Positions 1,281 to 17,232 of a stretch of 64,000 nt of DNA are shown piece by piece. This DNA is from Kumtagia ephedrae (GTDB taxonomy: Bacteria; Pseudomonadota; Alphaproteobacteria; Rhizobiales; Rhizobiaceae): NCBI RefSeq assembly GCF_003012745.1, contig NZ_PXYK01000005.1, positions 62,001 to 126,000 on the forward strand. The letters run 5' to 3'. Made by a program: the position numbers and the translations under genes. The notes below the pieces were generated by a model that worked only from the letters and a program-made list of their open reading frames with translations, did no database searches and had not been told where the DNA came from. The stretch's first letter is position 1. Every line of letters begins with the position of its first letter.

Positions 1281-2606
1281 CTACACGCGGTAGTACCGGT
1301 TCGCCCGCTTCTCGGCCTCTTCCATGGCCTCCTGCGGCGTCGCCTGCCCGGTCACCGCCTTGGCGTACATGTCGACCAGCACGTAGTCGGCCATGGTGGC
1401 GGCGGACGCATAGCCGAGAGGGCCGGCAAAGCCGTTCGGGCGCAGCGTCTCCGACGCCCTGGAATAGGCGGCGGCGTTCGGGTCGGACGTCCACACCGGA
1501 TTGTCGGCAAAGCCCTTGAGCGTTTGGCAGCAATAGCCGAGCGACTTCTCGATCCAGTTGGCCATCTGCTCCTGCTCGAACATGAACTGCAGATAGGCTT
1601 TCGCCGCATTCGGATAGGGCGTGTAATTGAAGACCACCGCCACCGTGGTCTGGTGCAGCTCCACCGACTGGCCGACCGGACCGATCGGCAGGTTGGTGGT
1701 GCGGATATCCTTGGCGATCTCGGCAAGCTTCGGATCGTTGTCCTTGTTGATCTGCGCGGTCCGGTAGGCCGAGATGCCGTTGGCGATGACGCCGAGCTCG
1801 CCGGCCAGGAAGGCGCGGTTGTTGTTGACGTCGAGCCAGCTCTCGGTGCCGGGGATGAAGGTCTTGTAGAGCTCCATCGCATATTCGATCGACTTCGCCG
1901 TCTCCGGGCTGTTGATGACGACCTTGCCGCCTTCGTCGACCATCCTGCCGCCATGGCTCCAGAGCAGCCAGTGGGCATAGTTGTTGCCGTCGCCGACGCC
2001 ATGGCCGTGGGTGAAGCCGGCCGGATGGCCGATCTTCTGCAAGGCCTTGCAGAGCTCCAGGAAGCCCGCCGTGTCCTTCGGGAACTCGGAGAAGCCAGCT
2101 TCCTTGACCCACGAGTCACGGTAGACGATGGCGTTGCCGATGCAGGCCACCGGCAGCCCGATGAACTTACCCTCGCGCGTCGCGTAGCCCTTCGGGCCGT
2201 CGTACCAGCCGCCATATTTGTTGCCGAGATAATCGCCGAGATCGGTGACGTCGAGCAGCTTGTCGGGATACTGATGCGCATCGTCGAACCAGACCAGCAT
2301 CAGGTCCGGGCCGGAGCCGACATTCGCGGCCACCGCGGCCTTCGGGCGGATGTCCTCCCAGCTTTCCTTGTCGACGCGCACCTGCACGCCGGTGGCGTCG
2401 GTGAACTTCTTGGTGTTGGCCAGCCAGGAATCCTCGTCGCCCTGCACGAAAGGCGACCAGCGCAGCAGGCGCAGCGTCGCGCCCGGCTCGGGCGTGTATG
2501 TCGGTGCCTCCTGGGCAAAGGCAGGCCGGCCGAGCAGCCCGCCGCCCAGAATGCCGGCGGCGGCGCCCGCGCCCGTGCGGATCACGTCGCGTCTGGTGAA
2601 TTGCAT
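1281..2606 (-). CDS. Extracellular sugar-binding protein, family 1, Tat-exported
   Basis: A 441-aa periplasmic solute-binding protein. The N-terminus carries a twin-arginine signal (FTRRDVIRTGAG, then an Ala/Gly-rich segment ending RPAFAQ near residue 31), so it is probably exported folded. The mature part has the family 1 fold signature (LLRWSPF, DLMLVWFDDAHQYPD, the GKFIGLPVA stretch). It delivers the substrate to the two permeases downstream. The ATPase gene lies 30 bp upstream in the same direction, completing the importer. The ligand is unknown. Confidence 0.9.
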   Translation of the reverse strand: MQFTRRDVIRTGAGAAAGILGGGLLGRPAFAQEAPTYTPEPGATLRLLRWSPFVQGDEDSWLANTKKFTDATGVQVRVDKESWEDIRPKAAVAANVGSGPDLMLVWFDDAHQYPDKLLDVTDLGDYLGNKYGGWYDGPKGYATREGKFIGLPVACIGNAIVYRDSWVKEAGFSEFPKDTAGFLELCKALQKIGHPAGFTHGHGVGDGNNYAHWLLWSHGGRMVDEGGKVVINSPETAKSIEYAMELYKTFIPGTESWLDVNNNRAFLAGELGVIANGISAYRTAQINKDNDPKLAEIAKDIRTTNLPIGPVGQSVELHQTTVAVVFNYTPYPNAAKAYLQFMFEQEQMANWIEKSLGYCCQTLKGFADNPVWTSDPNAAAYSRASETLRPNGFAGPLGYASAATMADYVLVDMYAKAVTGQATPQEAMEEAEKRANRYYRV

Positions 2607-2636
2607 CGTCTTCTCCTCCCGATGGTTGGTATTCGT

Positions 2637-3707
<1,071 letters not shown>

Positions 3708-3878
3708 CTACCCTCCCGAGCGTGTAGTTCGCGCGCCCTCCGAAGGAAGGACGACCGCATCGCGTGACGGCAGTCTCCTCCCGCCGCCACGCGATGAATT
3801 GGTAGCGCTACCAGACGCGCATGTAAACCCGGGTAGCAGCATCCGGTCCTTCGTCCGCTGCCCCTGGCTCGCCGGGGG

Positions 3879-4316
3879 TCAGTGCATGCTTTGCGAATGC
3901 TCTCCGCCGGGCTTGGAGATTCCGCTCAGCGCTTCGCCGGCGTCGGCCGCCTGGCCGTTGGTCGCGAGGTCGCCGAGGGAGACGATGCCGATCAGCCGCT
4001 TGTCGCGGCTCAGCACCGGAAGGCGCCTGACCTGAAGGTCTCCCATGTTGCGCAGCACGTCCTCGATCTCCTCGTCCTCGTAGCAGTATTTGACGTCCGT
4101 GCTCATGACGTCGCGGATTTTCGCGTCGGGGCCCCTGCCCTTTGCCACGCCGCGCACCGCGATGTCGCGATCCGTGATGATGCCGACCAGGCGATCGTTC
4201 TCGCCGACCGGCATGACGCCGGCGTCGAGGCGGGCCATGATTTCGGCGGCCTCGCGGATCGATTGTTCCGGATTGGCGATTTCGACGTCGTTGGTCATGC
4301 AATGGCTTACTCGCAT
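3879..4316 (-). CDS. Tandem CBS-domain protein
   Basis: A 145-aa cytoplasmic protein made almost wholly of two CBS motifs: one at residues 7-60 (VMPVGENDRLVGIITDRD) and one at 68-120 (RRLPVLSRDKRLIGIVSLGD). Such stand-alone pairs bind adenine nucleotides and act as energy or stress sensors. A tail of about 25 polar residues ends HSQSMH. The neighbours are small stress-type genes rather than a transporter or IMP dehydrogenase, so no partner can be named. The start at 4316 gives the family's typical MRVSxCMT opening. Confidence 0.85.
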   Translation of the reverse strand: MRVSHCMTNDVEIANPEQSIREAAEIMARLDAGVMPVGENDRLVGIITDRDIAVRGVAKGRGPDAKIRDVMSTDVKYCYEDEEIEDVLRNMGDLQVRRLPVLSRDKRLIGIVSLGDLATNGQAADAGEALSGISKPGGEHSQSMH

Positions 4317-6318: not shown

Positions 6319-9102
6319 TCACGGAATATCCAGGAACCCGCCAAAGGCCGCGAGGTCCAGCATCTGCCGCTCGTCCCGCACCACCGTCCGGATGGCCGAC
6401 AGGTCATGCGCGAAATTCTGCCGCAGCGCCTGCCCTCCGAAATGCAGCCCGCCTATCCGATAGGGCCGCCGCAGGCTGATGACCGCGGCGCCGGAATTGC
6501 CGGCAAGCGTCGTTGCGTCGTGGGTGAACGCCCAGCCGCGCTCGTCGCCGACGATCTCGCCCGGCTTGTTGACGATGCGCCCGACGCTGAGATGTTTCGT
6601 CCCGTAGGCGTCGTCGAACACATCCTGGACCTGCGCCCACGGGTCCGCGGTCTCGCCGGTGGCCGTGTCGGCCGACAGGACCGGCCTGGCCGGATAGCCG
6701 ACGACGACCAGTCCGGACCGGTTGCCGGCTTCCACGGGCAACCGGCCCGAGGGCGCCGGCGCAGGCAGACGGGCGCCGGCAGCATTGGTCGTCTCGACCT
6801 CGAGAACCGCGATGTCGAGCTTGCCGACGTCCGCGACCTCGCCGATCCTCCAGGGGCCCGCCGTCAACACGTCCTTGACCACGAAGCGCCGGCTCTCGTC
6901 CAGCGCCGCTTCGTCGAAGCAGATGGAGACCGGAGCGTTGAGCAGGAACTTCTGCGTTCCGTCCGACGACGGAATCGGCTCGCAGAAGGCTTCGATGACA
7001 TGACGGTTGGTCATGATCAGGCCGTCGCCGATCACCGTGCCCGTTCCGACATGGACATGGCCGTCCGGCCTGCCGATGTCGATGCGGCCGACGGCGTCGA
7101 TCAGCGGCTTCAGGAGCTTGTGTGCCGGCTCGAGCTCTCCCGCCCACAGCGCCAGCTCGGGTCGATCGAGATCGATGGAACCTTCGACGACCGGCACGGC
7201 CGGACGGTCGGTGATGCGCACGATCATCTCGGCCGTGGACCGGGCCGCGCCGAGCACATCCGCCGGAATCGCCGTGCCGTGCGCCCAGGAATCGATGACG
7301 CGTTCCGCCTGCGACATGATTTCGTGACGGATCCTGTCCGCGTCGGCACGCCGGCGCTTTTGCGCGACCTGGCTCTTCAGCACGCTTTCGATCCGGTCCA
7401 GCAGCGCCTTTTTGCCTTCCCGGACCGATGCGGCACGGCTGGCGGAAGACGCCCCGGTTGCCACCGCGCCTTGCGCCAGGATCTTCGCCGACGGCTTGCG
7501 CGGTCCGATATAGGGCGTGAGCGGTGCGACCGCCGCCGAGCGCGCGCTGCGCTCCGCCGGCAACTCGCCGCCACCCGACCGGCGGATGGCGGCTTCCAGC
7601 GCCTGGCTGGGCCGCGGCGCGGCGGCGCTTTCCAGCGCTCCGACGCGTGTCGGGTCCGTCCGCTGCCGCCGGTCCAGTGCCAGGAATCCCGCCTCCGCCA
7701 GGAAGCGTTCGGCATCGGCCACGCCTTCCAGCATCGACCGCCCGGGATTTGCGTCCGTGGAAGGCACGGGCCGTGAAACCCGCGCGAGTGGCAGGCCGAG
7801 CAGTTGCTCGGCATCGACGACGCCGGCGCCGAGGGACTGCGACGGCCAATTCTCCGGCCGGCGGGCAGTCGCCTTGATCGCGGCGCGGAACAGTTCCTGG
7901 ACGCTGACGCCGCGCTTCTCCGCTTCCGCCTGCACGGCGTCCGGCGAGTGCCTGGACAGCCACAGCGCCGCGCAGCCCGCGGCGATCGCCACCGCAAAGG
8001 ACGTGCCCTGGCCCGGCTCGACCAGCGACTTGTCGGCATCCGCCGGCCAATGCCGGCGCGCGACATAGACGTTCTCGCCCGGCGCCGAGATGTCCACCTT
8101 GGGGCCGTGCGAGGTTCCCCGCCACGCCCGGTCGTCGGCATCGACGGCGGCCACGGCGATCACGTTGGCGTCCCAGGCGGGATAGAGCACGGCATGCACG
8201 CAGTTGCCGGCCGCCGCTAGCACGATCATGCCGGCCTTGACGGCGCGATCGATGGCGCGCCGCAGATCCGCGCCTTCGATCGGGCCGCCCAGGCTCATCG
8301 TGACGATATGGCAGCCGGCCAGCCGGGCATGGTCGATCGCCGCGGCGACGGCGGCGCCGCTGCCGATGATGACGGAATTGGTGCAGCGGATCGGCACCAG
8401 TGTCGCTCCCGGCGCCGCTCCGACGATCGCCATGGACGGGCGGCTGACGGCCGCGCTCGATGTGGCGGTGCCGTGGCCCGGCGAGGCCATGGTCGGCGAC
8501 AGCGGATCGATGGGAAGGCCGCCGCCCGCCAGTGTGTCGGTGCCCCTGCGGATGTCGATGGCGCCGTCGAGCTCGCGATGGTCGGCGACGCCGGTGTCCG
8601 GCTGGCCGATGACGATGCCCTGCCCGGTCGTGCCGAAGGCCTCCCAGGCGCGGTCGGCCCGCACCGCCGAGACCGCCCAGCGCGGCGCCTGCGGTGCCGG
8701 CGCATGCGACCGGCACAGCGTCCAGACGATGCCGCCGACCGATTCGGGCGCCTGATGGCCGAGTTCGTCATCGGTTATCCATCCCGGATCGACGTCGGGC
8801 ACGCACGAGACCAGGCCGCAATCGCCGACCAGGCCCTGCGCCACGTCGAACAGGAAGCCGGCGGACTGCTGGCGGATGACCCCCGGAAATTGCAGGACAT
8901 GGATGAGCGGGTCCTCGCCGGGTGGAAGCGGGAAGAAGGCGAACCGGTCGCCGCCTATGATCCTGCTCAGCTTGTCGCGCTCGGTCTTCGGATCGGGCGC
9001 CTCGCGGTATTCCAGGGTGAATCGGACGATGCCCGGCGTCAGCGTCTGCGACTCCGGATCGCTGCAGGCTTCCGCAGCGGCCTTCAGGAATGGGCGATAC
9101 AT
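6319..9102 (-). CDS. Two-headed serine protease: subtilisin (S8) plus trypsin-like (S1) domains
   Basis: A 927-aa protein with two complete, unrelated protease sites. Residues 1-150 are a unique N-terminal region. The S8 domain (about 155-435) has Asp169 in QPDTG, His210 in GHGT, the oxyanion Asn300 in AAAGN and Ser368 in GTSF. A linker of about 200 residues follows, Ala/Arg-rich and partly coiled-coil. The trypsin-like domain (about 680-910) has His701 in MTNRHV, Asp763 in LDIAV and Ser870 in GNSGA. No signal peptide is seen, so it may act inside the cell. The start at 9102 has GAGGAAGAG upstream. The frame is open back to an ATG at 9552, but that stretch has weaker coding character. It probably belongs with the YcaO, peroxidase and precursor-like genes. 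Confidence 0.9.
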   Translation of the reverse strand: MYRPFLKAAAEACSDPESQTLTPGIVRFTLEYREAPDPKTERDKLSRIIGGDRFAFFPLPPGEDPLIHVLQFPGVIRQQSAGFLFDVAQGLVGDCGLVSCVPDVDPGWITDDELGHQAPESVGGIVWTLCRSHAPAPQAPRWAVSAVRADRAWEAFGTTGQGIVIGQPDTGVADHRELDGAIDIRRGTDTLAGGGLPIDPLSPTMASPGHGTATSSAAVSRPSMAIVGAAPGATLVPIRCTNSVIIGSGAAVAAAIDHARLAGCHIVTMSLGGPIEGADLRRAIDRAVKAGMIVLAAAGNCVHAVLYPAWDANVIAVAAVDADDRAWRGTSHGPKVDISAPGENVYVARRHWPADADKSLVEPGQGTSFAVAIAAGCAALWLSRHSPDAVQAEAEKRGVSVQELFRAAIKATARRPENWPSQSLGAGVVDAEQLLGLPLARVSRPVPSTDANPGRSMLEGVADAERFLAEAGFLALDRRQRTDPTRVGALESAAAPRPSQALEAAIRRSGGGELPAERSARSAAVAPLTPYIGPRKPSAKILAQGAVATGASSASRAASVREGKKALLDRIESVLKSQVAQKRRRADADRIRHEIMSQAERVIDSWAHGTAIPADVLGAARSTAEMIVRITDRPAVPVVEGSIDLDRPELALWAGELEPAHKLLKPLIDAVGRIDIGRPDGHVHVGTGTVIGDGLIMTNRHVIEAFCEPIPSSDGTQKFLLNAPVSICFDEAALDESRRFVVKDVLTAGPWRIGEVADVGKLDIAVLEVETTNAAGARLPAPAPSGRLPVEAGNRSGLVVVGYPARPVLSADTATGETADPWAQVQDVFDDAYGTKHLSVGRIVNKPGEIVGDERGWAFTHDATTLAGNSGAAVISLRRPYRIGGLHFGGQALRQNFAHDLSAIRTVVRDERQMLDLAAFGGFLDIP

Positions 9103-9597
9103 TGTGTCTCTTCCTCTGCGGCGGCCGGGCGCTTCGGCCGGCCGGGCCCGATCCCAAGACCGGCCGTGCATCGGCCAGCGAGGAAGACGGACCGGTTGCG
9201 GCCCGTCCCGCTCGATATCGGGATCGCGATTGTCTGCTTGCTCGGGAATGGCGACCCGCGCCGATGGGAGGATGGCGCGGGAAGCGCCCGCTATGGCCAG
9301 GCCATCGGCGAGCGGATATGTCGGTTGGTCATGCGGGACTGGAGAGGCAAATGCCTCCAGCCGATGTGAGTGCCCGGATCCCGGATGGACCGGAGCGGAA
9401 AGCGTCGCCGCCCCGGGGCGGCGCACGGCAAACGGCAGCACATCGCCCATACCGCCATCGAAGCGCCCCTTGCCCGCAAAGCGGACCCCCGTCGCCTCGA
9501 ACCTCCCTGCATCCGACCGATGGCCGGCCGACCTATGTTCGACGTTCCTCATGGCTGCCCTCAGCTGCCAGACCTCACATCGGCAGATAGCCCGGGG
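9103..9597. other. Long leader or gap upstream of the double protease
   Basis: About 495 bp separate the repeat block at 9598 from the preferred protease start. The protease frame is open throughout, and an ATG at 9552 preceded by GAGGGC lies about 45 bases from the repeat block, the same distance as for the gene at 16165. Third-position GC in that frame is only about 70 percent by hand count, well below the surrounding genes. I therefore treat most of it as untranslated leader, possibly carrying the small frame at 9291-9458. Confidence 0.4.
9291..9458 (-). CDS. Possible small peptide gene in the protease leader
   Basis: A 55-codon frame starting ATG at 9458 with AAGGGG seven bases upstream and ending TAG at 9291. 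The peptide opens MAVWAMCCRLPC, so three cysteines cluster near the N-terminus, and continues with a basic region. Third-position GC is about 80 percent by hand count, higher than the overlapping protease frame. It is listed because short Cys-rich peptides are natural YcaO substrates and the gene lies downstream of the shared repeat block. It may be a chance frame. Confidence 0.2.
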   Translation of the reverse strand: MAVWAMCCRLPCAAPGRRRFPLRSIRDPGTHIGWRHLPLQSRMTNRHIRSPMAWP

Positions 9598-9619
9598 CAG
9601 CGTGAAGTCAGCGTGAAGC
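9598..9619. promoter_or_regulatory. Tandem 11-bp direct repeat, candidate SARP operator
   Basis: Two adjacent 11-bp units, CAGCGTGAAGT and CAGCGTGAAGC, followed 12 bases after the second GTGAA by GCGGAAAA. The same arrangement is at 16209-16230. Directly repeated half-sites with 11-bp period are what OmpR/SARP-type winged-helix regulators bind, and a SARP-type gene lies at 11107. The downstream gene in the matching orientation is the double protease. Confidence 0.55.
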
Positions 9620-9644
9620 GGCTGACGCCGCGGAAAACTTTTTG

Positions 9645-11039
9645 TCAGATCACCAGCGCGATCGGATTCAGGCGATCGGAATACGCCGTTTCCCAGCCCC
9701 GCTGCCCGGGCAGATGGCCGAGCCGGGGGCAGCCGAAGCGCGGCTTGTAGTGGGCAAGTCCGGCGGCGATCGCCTTGACCACGGGCACACCGATGTCGGG
9801 CCGCGACAGGTCGCTGAACCAGACCTCGTGGCCGGCCGCCGCCATCTCGTCCACCAGTTCCGGCAGCGCCGCGGCCCGCTCGGGCAGCGTCCCCGACGGA
9901 TCCGAGCCCGTCAGGAAATCCAGCGCGGCAAGATCCGCCTCGTCCAGCCAGCGCGATATCCTACCGTCGCTAGCCGACCCCGGCACGCCATCCTCCATGC
10001 GGATCTCGTGGGCGTCCATGGACAGCTCTGTCTGCAGCATTTCGAGGAATGCCGAGCGCACGGCGTCACGCCGCGACAGCGCGGCGGCGAAGCCCGCTGC
10101 CAATTGCCGGCCGCTCGGCGCGCAGGAAACCGCCGCCACGACGGACGCACTGCGGAAGGTCGAAATATCGAGAAACCAGAGTTTTCGCCCGGTGTCGTCG
10201 CGATGCCGCGCCAGCGCCGCCGCCAGTTCGGCATCTTCCAGAGTTTCGGCCGCGATGCGGGCGCGCCGGCAGCCCCGCCACCACCAGATGCCGGTCGCGT
10301 CGCGCTCGACCAGTTCGAGCACCGCGCGTCGCCGCGCCTCCTCCGGCGTCCGCCCGGCGGCTGAGCCGTTCGAATCGGCATTGAGGCCGGGATCGCCGCG
10401 CTCCCTGTCGCCGAAGCGGCCGTAGCAGAGAAAGGCCGGGCAAAGGGCCGATCGCGCGCCGGAGAGATCGTGCACGGTCGCCCAGTGCTCCGGCTCTTCC
10501 ATGTCCCCCGCCGTCGGGACGACATCCCATCCCCCCCACGTCCGATTGAGCTTTTCGCGGTCGCCGACCTGACGTTCGGAAAAGCCGAGCACATGCCGTG
10601 CTGAAATCCGCCCAGGCTGTTCTCCGGCAGCATCGAGCCCTGCCAGGCGCCGACGATCCTGCGGCCGGTACAACCAGCTTGCGAATTCCACCGCCTCGCC
10701 GAGGCAGCTGAGCACGGCCTGCGGCGCGGAAAAACCCTTGCCGTTGACTGTGGTCGGACCTGAGCCGGACGGCCCGCCGATATGGAGATTGCTCGCGGCA
10801 AGCACTCCGCCCGGCACCTCGAACAGGTCGACGACCATGCCGTGGCGGGCGGCAAAGCGGCACAGGTTCGACCGGTCCTCGGCGTGAGCCGTTCCGTCGC
10901 GTAAGGCGGGCCATAGCCCGGCGGCCGACAGATCCGCGCTATCGCGGGCCGACGACGCGGTTGCAGCAGTTTCAAGCGGGTTGCATTGCGCTACCGAACT
11001 GGCGCAAAGAAGTTCCCAATGGCGCTTTTCAAGCCGCAC
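9645..11039 (-). CDS. YcaO-family ATP-dependent cyclodehydratase-like enzyme
   Basis: A 464-aa YcaO-domain protein. Conserved blocks are visible: GKGFSAPQAVLSCLGEAVE (residues 100-118), SNGSAAGRTPEEA and LELVERDA (223-248), and the AFLEMLQTEL helix (330-339). These form the ATP site of YcaO enzymes, which activate peptide backbone amides to make azolines, thioamides or amidines. No E1-like partner, TfuA or azoline dehydrogenase gene lies nearby, so it is a stand-alone or discrete YcaO. The C-terminus is LNPIALVI, not the proline-rich tail of azoline-forming TOMM enzymes. The start is a GTG at 11039, with GGTGAAAG upstream. It is divergent from the SARP-type regulator across 67 bp. A methylthiotransferase-accessory role, as for E. 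coli YcaO, is the alternative. Confidence 0.85.
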   Translation of the reverse strand: MRLEKRHWELLCASSVAQCNPLETAATASSARDSADLSAAGLWPALRDGTAHAEDRSNLCRFAARHGMVVDLFEVPGGVLAASNLHIGGPSGSGPTTVNGKGFSAPQAVLSCLGEAVEFASWLYRPQDRRRLAGLDAAGEQPGRISARHVLGFSERQVGDREKLNRTWGGWDVVPTAGDMEEPEHWATVHDLSGARSALCPAFLCYGRFGDRERGDPGLNADSNGSAAGRTPEEARRRAVLELVERDATGIWWWRGCRRARIAAETLEDAELAAALARHRDDTGRKLWFLDISTFRSASVVAAVSCAPSGRQLAAGFAAALSRRDAVRSAFLEMLQTELSMDAHEIRMEDGVPGSASDGRISRWLDEADLAALDFLTGSDPSGTLPERAAALPELVDEMAAAGHEVWFSDLSRPDIGVPVVKAIAAGLAHYKPRFGCPRLGHLPGQRGWETAYSDRLNPIALVI

Positions 11040-11106
11040 GTTCTTTCACCACTTAACGCAGGGTCCTGTACGGTATTACGATGCTTACCAAAGGTGCAGG
11101 ATTCTC

Positions 11107-13143
11107 ATGTCGGTAGCGACAGTTGCAAGGCATACCGAGGACGGCGTCGTCGAGGCACGGCTGGAAGTCAAGCTTCTGGGCGGCTTCGAGATTCACAGCG
11201 CCGGCCAGGTGCATGTCTTCGACAAGCGCAAGGCGTGCGCGATCCTCGCCTATCTGCTGCTGAGCGGACAGTACCGGGAGACGCGCGGCCGCCTTTCGGC
11301 GCTCTTGTGGAGCGACCGCGACGAGGAACATGCGCGCGCCTCGCTGCGGCAATCGATCCGCGATCTCCGGCAGATCGAGGTCCAGACCGGCGTCAACTTT
11401 CTGGCCGTGGACAAGCTCTCCGTCGGCATCGACCGCACCCTGTTCAAGACCGATATTGCAACCGTCCATCTCGCCCTCAAGCAGCGGGATTTCGCGATCG
11501 CCGACGGCATACTGGCGCAGCGGAGCGATTCGCTGTGCGCCGGCCTCCAGGACTGCGACCCGGTTTTCGACAACTGGCTGAGGATGACCGCCACGCATTG
11601 GTCGGACAGCCTGGTCCAGCAGCTGTCGAAGGCCCTCGATGCGCCGAACTCGACGGTCGCCGAGCGCAAGGCGATCGCGAGCTGCATATTGCATGTCGAC
11701 CCCTTGCACGAAGCGGCGGCGATGGAAATGCTGCGCGCGCTCTACCGCGAAGGCGGCTTCGCCAGCGCGCACGGCTTTTTCGAGCGTTACTCCAACGACC
11801 TTCGCGCCGAGCTCGACATCGCGCCGCCGCGCGACATGGTCCGGCAGCTCGAGGAGTTCAAGACCGGCGAACGCAGCGATGTCGCGGGCGCGGCGCCGCA
11901 AGGCCGCATCGAACCCGACATGCTGCCCAACGTCGTCGAGAAGCCGACGATCGTTCTGGTCACGGAAAAATATCGGGCGAGCGATGCCCACATCCAGTTC
12001 GCCCTGGTGAGCGAGCTGTCCGCCTCGCTGTCGCGCTTCCGGCACTGGACCGCGATCCAGGCCGAGCTCGATCCGGAGATCATCCGCTCGCGCTCGATCG
12101 ACGGCCTGCTCAGCGCCCTGAAGGACATTGCCGACGTGGCGGTGGTGATCAACACGGCAGAACGGGGAACCGAGCGTCTCTTCGAGATCTCGTGCGTTTC
12201 GCTCACCCATGGCGAGCTGCATTTCACCACCACCGCGCCGCACGCGCCGTCCGGCTGGCGAACCGTGTTCAACGAAATCTGCGCGCAGGTGGCCTCGCGG
12301 CTGCAGCTTGCCATATCGAGCACGCGGCTGCACCGCATAGACACGCTGTCGCCGAACTACATCTCGGCCTACGATCACTGGCTCGACGGGCAGCGACTGT
12401 CCATCTTGTGGCGCAACGACACCGAGGCCGCCGCGATTGCCCGCTACGAGGACGCGATCCGCCTCGATCCCAAGCTGGCCTGCGCCTATTCGAGCCTGGC
12501 CGCGATCCTGAACTCGCGCTGGATCGTGCTGCCGGGCTATCCGCTGGACAGCGCCGACCTGGAGCGCGCTTTCGATCTCGCCAAGCAGGCGGTGATGCTC
12601 GACCCGCTCGACCACCGCAATCAGGTCAACCTGGCGTGGAGCCATCTGCTCGCCCGCCGCTGGGAGCTGGCGGACTTCCATTTCGGCCTCGCCCACGACC
12701 TCAATGCCGCCAATCCGGCGACGCTCATCGCCTATGCGCTGGCGAGCGCCTTCGTCGGCAGCCCGGAGCGCGCCGTCGACCTGGCGCGGCGTTCCTTCGA
12801 GCTCAATCCGCTGCACGACCCGCACTATTACGGTTACCTGGCGACGATCTCGTTTCTTGCGGGCGACCTTCCCGGCTGCATCCAGGCGGTGGAAAAGAGC
12901 GACGGCCTTTTTCCCGACATCCGCGGCTGGTCGGCGGCGGCCCATGCGCTTTCCGGCAACGACGCGGCAGCGGGCGCCGATTTCCGCGTCTTCCTGCGCA
13001 GCATCTCCGCGGCCTGGTACAACAACGAGCGCCCGTCGCGCCGCGCTGCGATCGACTGGTTCAAGAATGTGTTTCCGATCCGGATCGAGGCCGATCGGGA
13101 ACGGCTTGCGCAAGGCATCGACCGCGCCGCGCGGCTGGCGTGA
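11107..13143 (+). CDS. SARP-type transcriptional regulator with BTAD and TPR-like regions
   Basis: A 678-aa regulator. Residues 19-95 are an OmpR-like winged helix (KLLGGFEI, then KACAILAYLLLSG and the RLSALLW stretch). Residues 100-255 are a bacterial transcriptional activation domain ending AELDIAPP. A middle part of about 150 residues is unrecognised, and TPR-like helical repeats occupy about 410-610. This plan is that of SARP activators, which often control specialised-metabolite clusters and bind 11-bp direct repeats. The ATG at 11107 leaves the winged helix intact; the upstream in-frame codons have no ribosome site. It is divergent from the YcaO gene and is the likely cluster activator. 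Confidence 0.85.
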   Translation: MSVATVARHTEDGVVEARLEVKLLGGFEIHSAGQVHVFDKRKACAILAYLLLSGQYRETRGRLSALLWSDRDEEHARASLRQSIRDLRQIEVQTGVNFLAVDKLSVGIDRTLFKTDIATVHLALKQRDFAIADGILAQRSDSLCAGLQDCDPVFDNWLRMTATHWSDSLVQQLSKALDAPNSTVAERKAIASCILHVDPLHEAAAMEMLRALYREGGFASAHGFFERYSNDLRAELDIAPPRDMVRQLEEFKTGERSDVAGAAPQGRIEPDMLPNVVEKPTIVLVTEKYRASDAHIQFALVSELSASLSRFRHWTAIQAELDPEIIRSRSIDGLLSALKDIADVAVVINTAERGTERLFEISCVSLTHGELHFTTTAPHAPSGWRTVFNEICAQVASRLQLAISSTRLHRIDTLSPNYISAYDHWLDGQRLSILWRNDTEAAAIARYEDAIRLDPKLACAYSSLAAILNSRWIVLPGYPLDSADLERAFDLAKQAVMLDPLDHRNQVNLAWSHLLARRWELADFHFGLAHDLNAANPATLIAYALASAFVGSPERAVDLARRSFELNPLHDPHYYGYLATISFLAGDLPGCIQAVEKSDGLFPDIRGWSAAAHALSGNDAAAGADFRVFLRSISAAWYNNERPSRRAAIDWFKNVFPIRIEADRERLAQGIDRAARLA

Positions 13144-13169
13144 CGCGGTCGAGCTCTCTCTGTTTTGCC

Positions 13170-13212
13170 GCATGATCTTGTCCGAAAAGTCTGCAACTTC
13201 TCGGGTTCATGC
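13170..13212. repeat. Rhizobial GCATGATC palindrome
   Basis: A 43-bp stem-loop, GCATGATCTTGTCCGAAAAG to CTTCTCGGGTTCATGC, between the convergent regulator and precursor-like genes. From memory it matches a dispersed palindrome common in Mesorhizobium and related genomes. It may also serve as a bidirectional terminator. Confidence 0.6.
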
Positions 13213-13224
13213 TGCATGTCGCGC

Positions 13225-13629
13225 CTATTTGCAGCGCGACATCACATAGTCGCCGATGCGGCTGCGATAGCCGCGCAGCCGGTTGGCCTTCTTCTCCTCC
13301 GGCGTGGCGCCGGTGTTCGGGTCGAATTTGTAGTGGTCGGGGAACGGGTAATCCACGCCCTCGCCCACCTCCGGCGCGATTTCACGCACGGTTTCCTCGA
13401 CGTCGCCCGTGAACGGGAAGGAGATGTTGACGACATTCTCCTCGTCGAAATGCGGGACGATGGTGATCTCGTCCCAGGTCTTGCCGCGCGGCGACATGAA
13501 TCCCCTCAGGAGATTCTTGATCTCATCCTGGGATCCCGTCTTGAAGGTCTCGATCGCCGCGGGATCCTTGATCATCCGCTGGATGAACTCCCCGAGCGCC
13601 TCGAACTGCACGTTCTCGAATTTGGCCAT
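13225..13629 (-). CDS. Precursor-like protein with NHLP-type leader character (candidate RiPP substrate)
   Basis: A 134-aa protein starting at the ATG at 13629, with AAAGGAGGG four bases upstream; an upstream GTG at 13650 is less likely. Residues 10-75 read as a short helical stretch with IKDPAAIETF, a DEIKNLL helix, then TIVPHFDEENVVNISFPF. This pattern resembles nitrile-hydratase-like leader peptides (DPxF helices followed by a V-rich strand ending in LP). The tail is basic and ends in YVMSRCK, with the only cysteine second from the C-terminus. There are no nitrile hydratase genes here. It lies 17 bp after the haem peroxidase in one operon and near a YcaO gene, so a modified-peptide precursor is plausible. 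A small structural partner of the peroxidase is the alternative. Confidence 0.6.
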   Translation of the reverse strand: MAKFENVQFEALGEFIQRMIKDPAAIETFKTGSQDEIKNLLRGFMSPRGKTWDEITIVPHFDEENVVNISFPFTGDVEETVREIAPEVGEGVDYPFPDHYKFDPNTGATPEEKKANRLRGYRSRIGDYVMSRCK

Positions 13630-13646
13630 AATGCCCTCCTTTTCTT

Positions 13647-15398
13647 TCACACTGCGTTGCCCGTCCTTCGATGACCCCTTGCGGAAAGGTCGGGACGGAC
13701 CGTCCTTTCCAGCAATCCGACGAGTTCGTCATCCGACACCAGCCTGTCGTCGGCAAGCCTCAGCAGGCCGGCCAGTGTATGCGGATGGACCGTCCAGGGC
13801 AGCGGTACGTGGATTTCGCTGTCGCTGGTATTGAAGAGTGCGGCGGCGACCGTCGCGCCGACGATATACGAGCCGACCGGGCCGAGCCGGTTCCCGTCGT
13901 CGCCGAGCACCGAGGCTTCCTGCAGCACGTAATAGGAAAGCGGCGTCTCCGTCAGGAACTGCGGGTAGGCATTCAGTGTCCGCTCCAGTTCCGCCGCATG
14001 GAAGGGGTAGCGCTCCTTGCACCACTCCGTCGGGAGCATGTCGGCGCCGGACAGCACCCGCACATGGGCCGGGCCGTCGGCAAGCGCCGCCCCGACGGCT
14101 TCCGCGACCGCCTGCCCCGAAGGCAGCCCCAGGTGGTAGCAGCGCCAGCAGTCCATGAAGGCGATGGAGCGAGGCGTTCCGTCGAGATCGGCCGCGTGCT
14201 TCACCGAGGCCAGCTCGAAGGCAAGGAACGGGCTGATCCGGCGCGCCCGCATCATCCTGGCCGGATCGCCCAGTTCGGCGAAGCGGCTCCAGTCGATCGC
14301 CCAGTTGACGCGCACCGGCACGTCGCCGTGCGGGCGCTGGCTGGAGAAGGACAGCATCTCCCGCAGCGTGCCGGGGATGTCGTCGAAGGCCTGGTTGACG
14401 GAATAGCGCTCGCGAACCATGCCGTGGGCGAAACGCGAGGCGCCGAAGGAAAACTCCATCGGCAGATCGGCGAGCGGCGCCAGCGTGTCCGCGCCCGGCC
14501 CGCGGAAGCCTTCGCCGCCGAAGAAATGGTCCCATACCTCGCGCGACAGCATCCGGCGCATGTAGTCGTCGACCACGACGCGCCGATAGACGCTGGTCAG
14601 ATAGGCGCGCGCCTGCTCGAAGGCGATCTGGGCGGTGGCGCCGCGGTGTGCGATCTGCACGTCGACGAGACGGTTGTGCACCTGCATCAGCGCACAATGG
14701 AGTTGCGACAGGACCAGGTTGTCGTCGTTGCGCGGATCGGCGACGAGCGGGCGATATGGCCCCTTGCGCCCCTGCAGGCTCATGAAGCCGCTTGACCCGT
14801 CGACGCGCGGCAGGTCGCGCGCCCGCTCCACGGAGCCGTCCACCGGCAGCTTGACGTTGCGGTCGCTGACGCCGGGCAGGCCGAGCGGAAAACGGCAGAG
14901 CGCCGTGTCATTGGCCGATGCCCAGTCGTAGAGATGCGGGTCGACGACGGGACCGCGCCCGTAGAGGCCCGAAAGATCGATGCTGCCCGAGGAGGCATTG
15001 CGCAGCGCCCGCTCGCTGACGTCGCTGACGGGAGCGCCGAAGATGCGGCTGAAGACGATGTCGTGGAAGACGAACTGGCCGAAATAGGTGAACGCCGCCG
15101 GATTGTCGCTGAGATCGGTGGGATCGATCGGGCCGAGCATGCGGCTCGTAATGGCCGACAATGCTTCCTGGGTGCGCTCGACCGCCGCGCTGCCGTTCTC
15201 CGCCTCCATCAGGCTTATCGGCCTGTCGGCGAGGTCGGGAAAGAGAAGACGCTCGCGCAACGCAGCCCCGGAGGCGCTCTTCTTCTCGATGGCGCTTTTC
15301 TTCTCCATAACGGGACAGCCCTCGGTCTGCCGCTGCGCCCCGTAGTTCCGCCGGTGATTGACCAACGCTTCGTAGTTGGTGTCTTCCCCGTGTCGCAT
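13647..15398 (-). CDS. Animal-type haem peroxidase family protein
   Basis: A 583-aa enzyme of the animal haem peroxidase superfamily. Distal His112 lies in FGQFVFHD, the catalytic Arg223 region is DPRNDDNLVLSQLH followed by HNRLVD, and proximal haem ligand His325 lies in RFAHGMVRERY. The family uses hydrogen peroxide to oxidise halides, tyrosines or other donors. No signal peptide is visible (the N-terminus is polar with Lys-rich repeats), so a cytoplasmic substrate such as a peptide is possible. The ATG at 15398 has GAGGG nine bases upstream, six bases inside a longer TTG start. It is cotranscribed with the precursor-like gene. Confidence 0.88.
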   Translation of the reverse strand: MRHGEDTNYEALVNHRRNYGAQRQTEGCPVMEKKSAIEKKSASGAALRERLLFPDLADRPISLMEAENGSAAVERTQEALSAITSRMLGPIDPTDLSDNPAAFTYFGQFVFHDIVFSRIFGAPVSDVSERALRNASSGSIDLSGLYGRGPVVDPHLYDWASANDTALCRFPLGLPGVSDRNVKLPVDGSVERARDLPRVDGSSGFMSLQGRKGPYRPLVADPRNDDNLVLSQLHCALMQVHNRLVDVQIAHRGATAQIAFEQARAYLTSVYRRVVVDDYMRRMLSREVWDHFFGGEGFRGPGADTLAPLADLPMEFSFGASRFAHGMVRERYSVNQAFDDIPGTLREMLSFSSQRPHGDVPVRVNWAIDWSRFAELGDPARMMRARRISPFLAFELASVKHAADLDGTPRSIAFMDCWRCYHLGLPSGQAVAEAVGAALADGPAHVRVLSGADMLPTEWCKERYPFHAAELERTLNAYPQFLTETPLSYYVLQEASVLGDDGNRLGPVGSYIVGATVAAALFNTSDSEIHVPLPWTVHPHTLAGLLRLADDRLVSDDELVGLLERTVRPDLSARGHRRTGNAV

Positions 15399-15799
15399 GG
15401 TCAATCGCCCTCTTCTGTCATGCCAGTCCGACCAGGGAGCGGGTGCTGCGCGCCTGCTCCGCCTGAAATTCGACCCGACGCCGGCCTGTCAGTACGACCG
15501 GCGGCGGGCAGCCCTCCACCCCTGCTTCGCAGCAATCGCTGTCGCCGGCATACGGCGGGACCGTGGTCGCGGCCACGGATCAAAGCAAGGAAAAACGACG
15601 GTATATCCGGCCGGGTCCGCCTGCCGGAAGACGGGACGGATCGTGTGGGAGGCCACGATCCGTCCCTGCAGCCGGCCCCCGCCGACCGGTGCTGTGTTGC
15701 AAGGAGCACCTTGGCAATGCGAGCCCGGCGGCATACCCGTCCTCGCCACAGCGCAATGCGCCGTGGCGCCAGAGACCCGCCGATTTCCAGCCAGCCTCG
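15399..15799. other. Gap between the peroxidase and the 121-aa gene
   Basis: About 400 bp with no convincing gene on either strand. The short frames are Arg/Pro-rich and lack ribosome sites, except a 32-codon plus-strand frame at 15717 that looks non-coding. It contains the 13-bp hairpin at 15633 and a smaller hairpin CCGTGG TCGCGG CCACGG near 15561. It presumably also holds the peroxidase promoter. Confidence 0.5.
15633..15666. terminator. Perfect 13-bp hairpin
   Basis: GGGACGGATCGTG and CACGATCCGTCCC pair perfectly across an 8-base loop. It lies downstream of the 121-aa gene and upstream of the peroxidase, so it may end the first transcript. No U-tract follows on the minus strand, so termination is inferred from stem strength only. 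Confidence 0.45.
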
Positions 15800-16165
15800 T
15801 CAATCGCGGGCATGACGCGCCGAGATGCGCGCAAGCCCGCCGCGCTCCCGGGTGATGACAACTTCGACATTTCTATCCTTCTGGTTGGCGACCTGCAGGA
15901 TCATGCGCGGCGACTGCTCCGGAGTGTCCGAGCGACGCATGTTCCGACGGATCGCCAGCCTGGCCCAGCGGGCCGAAGGCCGTTCGGGCCGCCCCGGTCC
16001 CCGCGGCACCGGATATTCGGCGGGCGCCCATTTTCCTTCCGTCCAGATGCGGACCGAAGGTCGCTGGCGGGCCGGCGCCTGAATGCCGGGAATACGCACT
16101 TTGGCCGTCGGGTCCAGCTCGTCCGGGATCGATAAATCGAACCGATGCGTGAGATGATCTGGCAT
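15800..16165 (-). CDS. Hypothetical 121-aa protein under the shared repeat block
   Basis: A basic 121-aa protein with a very strong ribosome site (AGGAGGGG four bases before the ATG at 16165). It has no membrane segment or signal peptide. Recognisable stretches are FDLSIPDELDP near the start, a Pro/Arg-rich middle (RPSVRIWTEGKWAPAEYPV) and a beta-like end (DRNVEVVITRERGGLARIS). I do not recognise a family. The promoter region carries the same tandem repeat as the double protease, so the gene probably belongs to the regulon. An escort, immunity or leader-recognition role is only a guess. Confidence 0.65.
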   Translation of the reverse strand: MPDHLTHRFDLSIPDELDPTAKVRIPGIQAPARQRPSVRIWTEGKWAPAEYPVPRGPGRPERPSARWARLAIRRNMRRSDTPEQSPRMILQVANQKDRNVEVVITRERGGLARISARHARD

Positions 16166-16208: not shown

Positions 16209-16230
16209 CAGCGTGAAATCAGCGTGAATT
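16209..16230. promoter_or_regulatory. Tandem 11-bp direct repeat, second copy
   Basis: CAGCGTGAAAT and CAGCGTGAATT are immediately adjacent, with GCGGAAAA 13 bases after the second GTGAA, matching the block at 9598-9619. The near edge lies 43 bases from the ATG at 16165. The conserved orientation relative to both downstream minus-strand genes argues for a shared activator site. Confidence 0.6.
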
Positions 16231-16395: not shown

Positions 16396-17232
16396 TCAGG
16401 ACAGCAGCATGCGGGCCGACGTCAGCGCCAGGAAGACGGCGAAGGCGAGCTTCAGATAGCGGGCGTTGAGCGCATGGGCGATGCGCGCGCCGAGCGGCGC
16501 CAGCAGGAAGCTGGTCGGCGCGATGATCACCGCCGCCGGCAGGCTGACATAGCCGAGACTGAATGGCGGCCGGTCGGCGACGTCGAGCCCTGCCCAGATG
16601 AAGCCGGCGACCGCCGGTACGGCGATCAGCAGGCCGAGCGCGGCCGAGGAGCCGACGGCGCGGTGGACGGGAAAGGAGAAGGCGGCGAGCGTCGGCACCG
16701 AAAGCGTGCCGCCGCCGATGCCCATCAGCGACGAGATGAAGCCGATGACGGTGGCGATCACCCGGTTGACGAGCCCGCTCTTCGGCAGGTGCTCGGCCAG
16801 GACCAGCGCCTTGGGCAGCGCCATGTTGACGGCGACCAGAACGCCGACCACGCCGAAGACCAGGCGCAGCCCGCCGCCGGGGATGTATTTCGACAGGATG
16901 CCGCCGATCAGCGCGCCGACGAACATCGCCGGCCCCCACAGCTTGAGCAGCGACCGGTCGACATTGCCGCGCTTGTTGTGCGCCCGCATCGACGAGATCG
17001 AGGTCGGGATGATGACGGCAAGCGACGTCGCCACGGCCAGGTGGCTGATCACCTCGTCCGGAAAGTCGAGCAGCGTCAGCACCCAGAACAGCACCGGAAC
17101 GATGACGATGCCGCCGCCGACCCCGAGCAGGCCGGCCAGCGTTCCGGAGACGACGCCCGTGAACAGCAGACCGGCGATCAGGGCGGCAACGGTCTCCCGG
17201 TCGAGCATCGACGCGTCAAATCCTGCTTCCAA
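16396..17232 (-). CDS. TauE/SafE-family sulfite or organosulfonate exporter
   Basis: A 278-aa inner-membrane protein with about eight hydrophobic segments. Two Gly-rich family signatures mark the duplicated halves: GLLGVGGGIVIVPVL near residue 35 and GFISSLMGIGGGTLSVPTL near 165. Members move sulfite, sulfoacetate or related anions across the inner membrane. No sulfur genes are adjacent, so the substrate is open. It is monocistronic as far as can be seen and separates the peptide-modification cluster from the B6 operon. Confidence 0.88.
   Translation of the reverse strand: MEAGFDASMLDRETVAALIAGLLFTGVVSGTLAGLLGVGGGIVIVPVLFWVLTLLDFPDEVISHLAVATSLAVIIPTSISSMRAHNKRGNVDRSLLKLWGPAMFVGALIGGILSKYIPGGGLRLVFGVVGVLVAVNMALPKALVLAEHLPKSGLVNRVIATVIGFISSLMGIGGGTLSVPTLAAFSFPVHRAVGSSAALGLLIAVPAVAGFIWAGLDVADRPPFSLGYVSLPAAVIIAPTSFLLAPLGARIAHALNARYLKLAFAVFLALTSARMLLS

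Follow-up and report, generated by a model that had tools for sequence, protein, structure and literature searches.

A 64,000-nucleotide stretch of the 6.1-Mb Kumtagia ephedrae genome (RefSeq assembly GCF_003012745.1, contig NZ_PXYK01000005.1, forward strand, positions 62,001-126,000; hereafter the window, whose numbering we use) raises the question of what a standalone YcaO enzyme, an animal-type haem peroxidase, a SARP-type transcriptional regulator and a 134-residue protein might make together. An earlier note had placed these four, along with a subtilisin/trypsin fusion protease and a 121-residue protein, in a candidate cluster for a ribosomally synthesized and post-translationally modified peptide (RiPP). 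All six open reading frames (ORFs) are present at the positions it gave; Pfam supports the products of four (protease, YcaO, regulator and peroxidase), and the 134- and 121-residue proteins have no family match above cut-off in Pfam and NCBIfam scans. What survives of the cluster is a conserved four-gene unit of YcaO, SARP-type regulator, 134-residue protein and haem peroxidase, which sequence comparison supports well; the 121-residue ORF drops out, as does the protease as a general member. On balance, we favor a RiPP-like system in which YcaO would activate the tail of the 134-residue precursor at a near-terminal Cys and the peroxidase would oxidise the product. We infer from the genes who modifies whom, which bond is made, what the product is and what it is used for.

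The four genes co-occur as a unit in Mesorhizobium and in other alphaproteobacteria. A search with the peroxidase led to 11 named loci. The order peroxidase, 134-residue gene, convergent regulator and YcaO is found in eight named loci, seven from Mesorhizobium and one from a Hyphomicrobiales metagenome-assembled genome, with the exception of L041, which has no YcaO and only a fragment of the regulator. Identity in the 134-residue protein is 53-81% across 8 loci, and far relatives of the block stand at about 27-34%. On a Mesorhizobium huakuii plasmid, the block is annotated as a peroxidase family protein, two hypothetical proteins and a YcaO-like protein. Searching from the YcaO side, we found matches in 60 of 297 genomes of the order, and 35 of the 71 places outside the window's own genome were read in context, mostly the strongest matches, picked after an initial look at short surrounding stretches, rather than a random sample. 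Among these 35 neighborhoods, 28 have a SARP-type regulator, 17 a peroxidase and 17 a precursor with the strict tail motif described below. The 17 peroxidase-bearing neighborhoods include 15 with a strict-motif precursor, 2 (L048 and L049) with a precursor of a second family, and 16 with the regulator; the second-family label was assigned by reading, and the tail pattern of this tally is slightly wider than that of the ORF count given below. A gene-encoded precursor next to a modifying enzyme, the two conserved together, is one mark of a RiPP pathway, and the 17 strict-motif and 2 second-family neighborhoods among the 35 show it. L049 lies on the same contig as L043 and L097 is the same locus as L035, so that neither pair is independent, and L123-L128 are covered by a separate neighborhood test and not by the 35-locus match table.

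A search with the precursor alone leads to the same association. It found 3 genomes besides the window's own among 385 of the class and 5 among 398 of the phylum; G171 and G194 were already in the query alignment and G041 is close to another of its rows, leaving G216, G895, G388, G391 and G525 as new, with the G391 match confined to the tail (E = 1.2e-4). The peroxidase and regulator are beside the precursor in all eight genomes. YcaO adjoins it in seven, the G388 copy being cut by a contig end. In the eighth, G216, the YcaO is 1.3 Mb from the precursor; this system looks split, because the distant YcaO groups with the cluster YcaO of the same genus (L053 beside L072, support 96/89).

The 134-residue protein (13225-13629, minus strand) is encoded directly downstream of the peroxidase, behind an AAGGAGG ribosome-binding site, and looks like a substrate. 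Its Mesorhizobium set and the wider family are homologous over their full length (hhalign E = 9e-11), and 20 aligned members range from 123 to 196 residues. Four positions are invariant in all 20 (G13, R124, Y128 and C133 in window numbering), and P47, P72, Y94, P97, Y100 and D127 are nearly so. Conservation is concentrated at the C terminus: mean pairwise identity is 49% over the last 13 columns versus 24% elsewhere, and the tail follows the consensus R-[IVL]-x-[DE]-Y-x4-C-x. In the window, this tail is R124-I-G-D-Y128-V-M-S-R-C133-K134 (13228-13260, minus strand), which we propose as the modified core. The strict motif occurs in 26 of 9597 ORFs of at least 30 residues, drawn from the first 30 kb of the window and from loci L035-L045 and L047-L081, and all 26 lie beside other cluster genes; among them, YcaO is missing from L041, and the peroxidase from the neighborhoods of L068 and L071. 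Fourteen family-level groups hold the family, one of them through L094, whose variant tail (R-F-A-D-Y-T-L-S-H-C-G-P) places Phe behind the Arg and extends two residues past the Cys. With one Cys and one Ser, the tail RIGDYVMSRCK is not the Cys/Ser/Thr-rich core of the linear azol(in)e peptides. Its constancy speaks for a conserved job rather than a variable antibiotic core: the product could be something like a cofactor, a metal ligand or a signal, or the modified tail could remain part of the protein. In the remnant locus L041, the peroxidase and precursor ORFs (10001-12282) are intact, YcaO is gone, and the regulator is reduced to 42 residues.

The family itself matches nothing well. Pfam and NCBIfam gave nothing better than E = 0.03 for the 20 members, the few weak matches varying from member to member, and the family profile has no match among PDB sequences. 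The earlier note had called the protein an NHLP-like precursor. It still looks like a substrate, given how strongly its tail, with Cys-x at the end, is conserved; clear NHLP membership has been dropped. The NHLP leader model TIGR03793 matches none of the 20 members, the window's protein giving no match at E values up to 1, and a genome-wide scan gave one TIGR03793 match (E = 7.9e-6), listed without its position. Profile comparison puts the wider set at E = 5e-4 (probability 31%, 43 columns) and the Mesorhizobium set at E = 0.02. Because this likeness is weak, we treat NHLP kinship as a lead and not as membership. In L043, L044, L045 and L048 there is a second precursor family, whose tail lacks Tyr and ends in [KR]CR and which shows no detectable homology to the first.

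The YcaO (9645-11039, minus strand; 464 residues from a GTG start; PF02624, E = 1.4e-51) is the only YcaO match of a profile search of the whole genome. Against the SagD-family model TIGR03604, it scores E = 3.5e-42 and 144.7 bits, below that model's cut-off of 219; against the model for the E. coli S12 type, NF040716, it scores E = 0.35 and 9.2 bits (cut-off 700), and we rejected the reading as a ribosomal-protein-S12-type enzyme. Its best structural and profile matches are the cyclodehydratases LynD, TruD and MusD (predicted model with a pLDDT of 83, the best of five). By these models and PDB profiles, the enzyme is nearest the peptide cyclodehydratases of the SagD/LynD type. Heterocycle formers like LynD, TruD and MusD prefer Cys. 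The sequence match to these enzymes spans the YcaO domain; the first 95 residues might serve as a recognition domain. As a separate observation, seven loci (L055, L059, L060, L061, L069, L074 and L075) have another YcaO and SARP-type pair beside an anthranilate-synthase-like ORF, in some cases together with a 361-residue ORF that by eye resembles tryptophan 2,3-dioxygenase; no ORF with the tail motif was found in any of the seven.

The peroxidase (13647-15398, minus strand; 583 residues; PF03098, E = 1.5e-9) belongs by sequence to the same family as the myeloperoxidase/lactoperoxidase superfamily, with a family match and both the distal and the proximal His; the distal Gln/His and the proximal His are invariant in 32 of 32 aligned peroxidases. 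The cluster copies differ from that superfamily around the active site. The Asp preceding the distal His, which we take to be the haem-ester Asp of myeloperoxidase, is lost in all 26 cluster copies and kept in five of five plasmid copies that have no nearby YcaO, and the Arg of the REHN motif, presumably the catalytic Arg, remains in 4 of the 26, versus 3 of 6 others. The window's enzyme has Gln and Phe at the positions of the presumed catalytic Arg and haem-ester Asp. In the peroxidase tree, the copies from strict-motif clusters all fall on one side of a branch with support 99/98. To count as a clade, they would need a root on the opposite side, and midpoint rooting does not place it there. 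The group of "orphan" copies in this tree consists of the five plasmid copies and a second peroxidase of L096, which adjoins a cluster. L096 has haem peroxidases at 8196-9935 and 13992-15758, on both sides of one regulator-YcaO block, and its second copy keeps the Asp before the distal His, as the plasmid copies do. The plasmid copies come from Sinorhizobium meliloti pSymA, two Rhizobium, Microvirga and Paracoccus, 6 of 32 plasmid records with a peroxidase match having been examined, and in the 13-19 kb read at each of the five neither YcaO nor precursor nor regulator has a match. The S. meliloti 1021 copy (L123, 8425-10293) is a lone animal-type haem peroxidase, 29% identical, with no YcaO or precursor match in 19 kb.

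These elements suggest a simple scheme. The 134-residue protein would be the substrate, in which the first 110 or so residues would act as a folded part for recognition and the tail would be the modified core. The standalone YcaO would use ATP to activate the backbone next to Cys133, which would most likely be closed to a thiazoline, and the haem peroxidase would then oxidise the YcaO product. The Cys-derived group seems a likelier target for the peroxidase than Tyr128, because both precursor families go with a peroxidase and what they share is the Cys, not the Tyr. YcaO and precursor look like the minimal core of the system, because genomes that lack the peroxidase keep the tail. The SARP-type regulator would switch on the peroxidase-precursor unit through TTCACGCT direct repeats and, in the window's lineage, would also switch on the protease, which could trim the product.

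Several observations weigh against this scheme. First, the usual companions of the chemistry are missing. There is no match in the genome to an E1-like/ocin-ThiF partner (TIGR03882, the single partner model used) or to TfuA (PF07812), and the window's YcaO has no PxPxP in its last 30 residues. A C-terminal PxPxP is typical of azoline-forming YcaOs; among all loci scanned, it occurs near the YcaO C terminus solely in L096, and there not at the very end. Because partner, TfuA and PxPxP are all lacking, azoline formation is not the sole option. Second, no further gene family appears in more than 8 of the 35 loci, so that no common exporter or protease is seen. Third, the association is not strict. 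The 134-residue gene is in two of four genomes of the window's own genus; G146 and G173 have precursor, YcaO and regulator and no peroxidase match anywhere in the genome; and 6 of 8 YcaO genomes checked have no precursor match, including G006 and G038, whose YcaOs group with the cluster YcaOs, G006 having no peroxidase match either. In the YcaO tree, the strict-motif set is not one clade (5 changes), so that more than one gain or loss of the pairing is possible. Fourth, a Foldseek search with the low-confidence precursor model (pLDDT 67) matched no known fold. Finally, no copy of the direct repeat precedes YcaO itself in the window. L044, whose peroxidase and regulator are in broken frames, is not part of A3, A4 or the trees, and near-copies (such as L038, L041, L042, L058, L064 and L077) are missing from at least one alignment or tree.

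Three alternatives draw on the same observations. The one that fares best, which we nevertheless consider unlikely, is that the 134-residue protein gives rise to no released peptide and is a working protein in its own right, whose Cys/Tyr tail YcaO and the peroxidase would turn into a built-in cofactor or metal site, much as happens in enzymes whose cofactors derive from peptides. A tail that is constant over 14 family-level groups and not hypervariable would suit such a protein, as would its length throughout the aligned set and the lack of a common protease or exporter. But one would then look for an enzyme that uses the cofactor, and none is common to the loci, unless the peroxidase is itself the partner; moreover, the low-confidence precursor model resembles no known fold.

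A second alternative, to which we give somewhat less credence still, keeps the precursor and changes the bond: the backbone change made by YcaO in the tail would be a thioamide or an amidine and not a thiazoline, and Tyr128 would be crosslinked by the peroxidase. The C terminus without PxPxP fits this, and a standalone YcaO family yields an amidine product (PMC8442711); the invariance of Tyr128 in 20 of 20 members would also be accounted for. Yet the closest solved relatives of the YcaO are heterocycle formers, the second precursor family, with no Tyr in its tail, has a peroxidase too, and the lack of any PF07812 match in the genome leads us to dismiss thioamidation of the TfuA type. Last, it is very unlikely that the peroxidase and the 134-residue gene work as a pair in stress or defence, linked to an unrelated YcaO by nothing more than a common regulator: loci with a precursor and no peroxidase, the G216 YcaO lying far from its precursor, related peroxidases alone on plasmids, and cluster-type YcaOs without a precursor would all agree with it, but YcaO is present in all eight precursor genomes other than the window's own, and even the distant one groups with a cluster YcaO.

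Set beside known systems, the RiPP-like reading of the four-gene unit has partial precedents. The closest are the azol(in)e RiPPs of the NHLP/proteusin type (PMC4603692 and PMC12455567), which share with our system a long, folded, leader-like precursor and a YcaO of similar broad type, and to which the precursor has its weak profile likeness around an IP...LPP stretch. In the survey of thiazole/oxazole-modified microcins, NHLP precursors go with YcaO, flavin dehydrogenases and proteases are among the companions of YcaO, and hypervariable cores are reported for NHLP and cyanobactin precursors (PMC4603692); no word starting with "peroxid" occurs in its main text. Azoline formation on an NHLP leader is described for MprC/MprE (PMC12455567). 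Here, in contrast, TIGR03793 finds none of the 20 members, the window's protein has no GG site, no E1-like partner was detected, a single near-terminal Cys replaces the variable core, and a haem peroxidase is present. RiPPs made with a standalone YcaO, such as streptamidine and bottromycin, resemble the window's system in pairing a YcaO that has no fused partner with a small conserved gene. The standalone YcaOs of the streptamidine study are from Actinobacteria (PMC8442711). The precursor here matches no named family, and the companion enzyme is a peroxidase. Phazolicin is also a case of YcaO peptide modification in Hyphomicrobiales (PMC6783444). A partner protein, a flavin mononucleotide-dependent dehydrogenase and an efflux pump are typical for its linear azole class (PMC6783444), whereas here TIGR03882 detects no partner and no common exporter is seen.

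The earlier note knew of no described class that combines a discrete YcaO with an animal-type peroxidase and a two-headed protease, and we found none coupling YcaO with such a peroxidase among the titles and abstract openings listed from a mostly non-subscription literature, an absence that is not proof. The gene set is, apparently, undescribed. It is compact, with two enzymes and one substrate in 14 family-level groups, and is in part annotated as hypothetical in the public record. It may yield a modified peptide of a new kind or a built-in cofactor. More specifically, and only tentatively, the product could be a conserved peptide- or protein-derived redox cofactor, in which YcaO would heterocyclise the near-terminal Cys and a haem peroxidase with an altered active site would oxidise or crosslink it, with the tail motif, here taken as R-[IV]-x-D-Y-x4-C-x, setting the system apart as its own class.

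Local control of the unit by the regulator is likely. The regulator gene (11107-13143, plus strand; 678 residues) is divergent from YcaO and conserved with the unit, and its product is of the SARP type, with BTAD and TPR domains (PF03704, E = 1.2e-7), as had been proposed. The unusual tandem repeat that the earlier note saw shared by two transcription units also stands: TTCACGCTGAYTTCACGCT is perfect at 9599-9617 and 16210-16228, both on the minus strand. The first copy, TTCACGCTGACTTCACGCT, is an operator candidate before the protease gene, with a counterpart at 16145 in L035 (1 mismatch), and the second, TTCACGCTGATTTCACGCT, is an operator candidate before the peroxidase unit. L035 has a perfect copy there too, and in L036 a copy with 1 mismatch lies 190 bp ahead of the peroxidase. 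Direct repeats with an 11-bp period suit a regulator of the SARP type, and for this reason we regard local control as likely; the shared repeat fits co-regulation. With a tolerance of up to 3 mismatches, chance matches average 0.42 per window, and 10 of 100 shuffles reached 2 or more; these figures count perfect and imperfect matches together. The genome-wide count of the reversed pattern is the better control: the exact core pattern has 3 copies in the genome and its reversal none. We did not accept the third copy (C8:179009), on another contig, as a clear additional target, because it falls within a predicted ORF. Elsewhere, L037 to L042 have copies with 3 mismatches before a longer upstream unit, with an extra copy there on the other strand in L038, L041 and L042 (0 to 2 mismatches), and L043 and L044 have no copy.

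The protease (6319-9102, minus strand; likely 927 residues) joins a subtilisin domain (S8; PF00082, E = 7e-30) to a trypsin-like one (PF13365, Trypsin_2, E = 3e-10), so that the fusion described in the earlier note is real; its place near the block is confined, in the stretches read, to two distinct genomes, the window's and that of Mesorhizobium sp. LHD-90, and we regard it as accessory rather than core. Its ORF is open to 9552, and the start is probably at 9102 (MYRPF...), because similarity to L035, where the protein is 70% identical, begins there, at M-Y-R. A script found the presumed motifs of both catalytic triads. The protease of this closest relative likewise sits behind the direct repeat. 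The 121-residue ORF (15800-16165, minus strand), between operator and peroxidase, has no family match, no tblastn match outside its own genome among 45 loci, and no room in L036; we rejected it as a member for lack of conservation, and it is probably outside the system.

A conserved three-gene stretch lies ahead of the peroxidase in L037-L042 (about 7300-9900; in L040, about 1500-4000) and L124 (6338-8866), encoding an EamA/DMT transporter, a candidate exporter in that lineage, along with a SLOG/TIGR00730 protein and a protein of 214-265 residues that Pfam does not match. In the window, the next gene past the cluster (16396-17208) encodes a TauE/SafE sulfite-exporter family protein.

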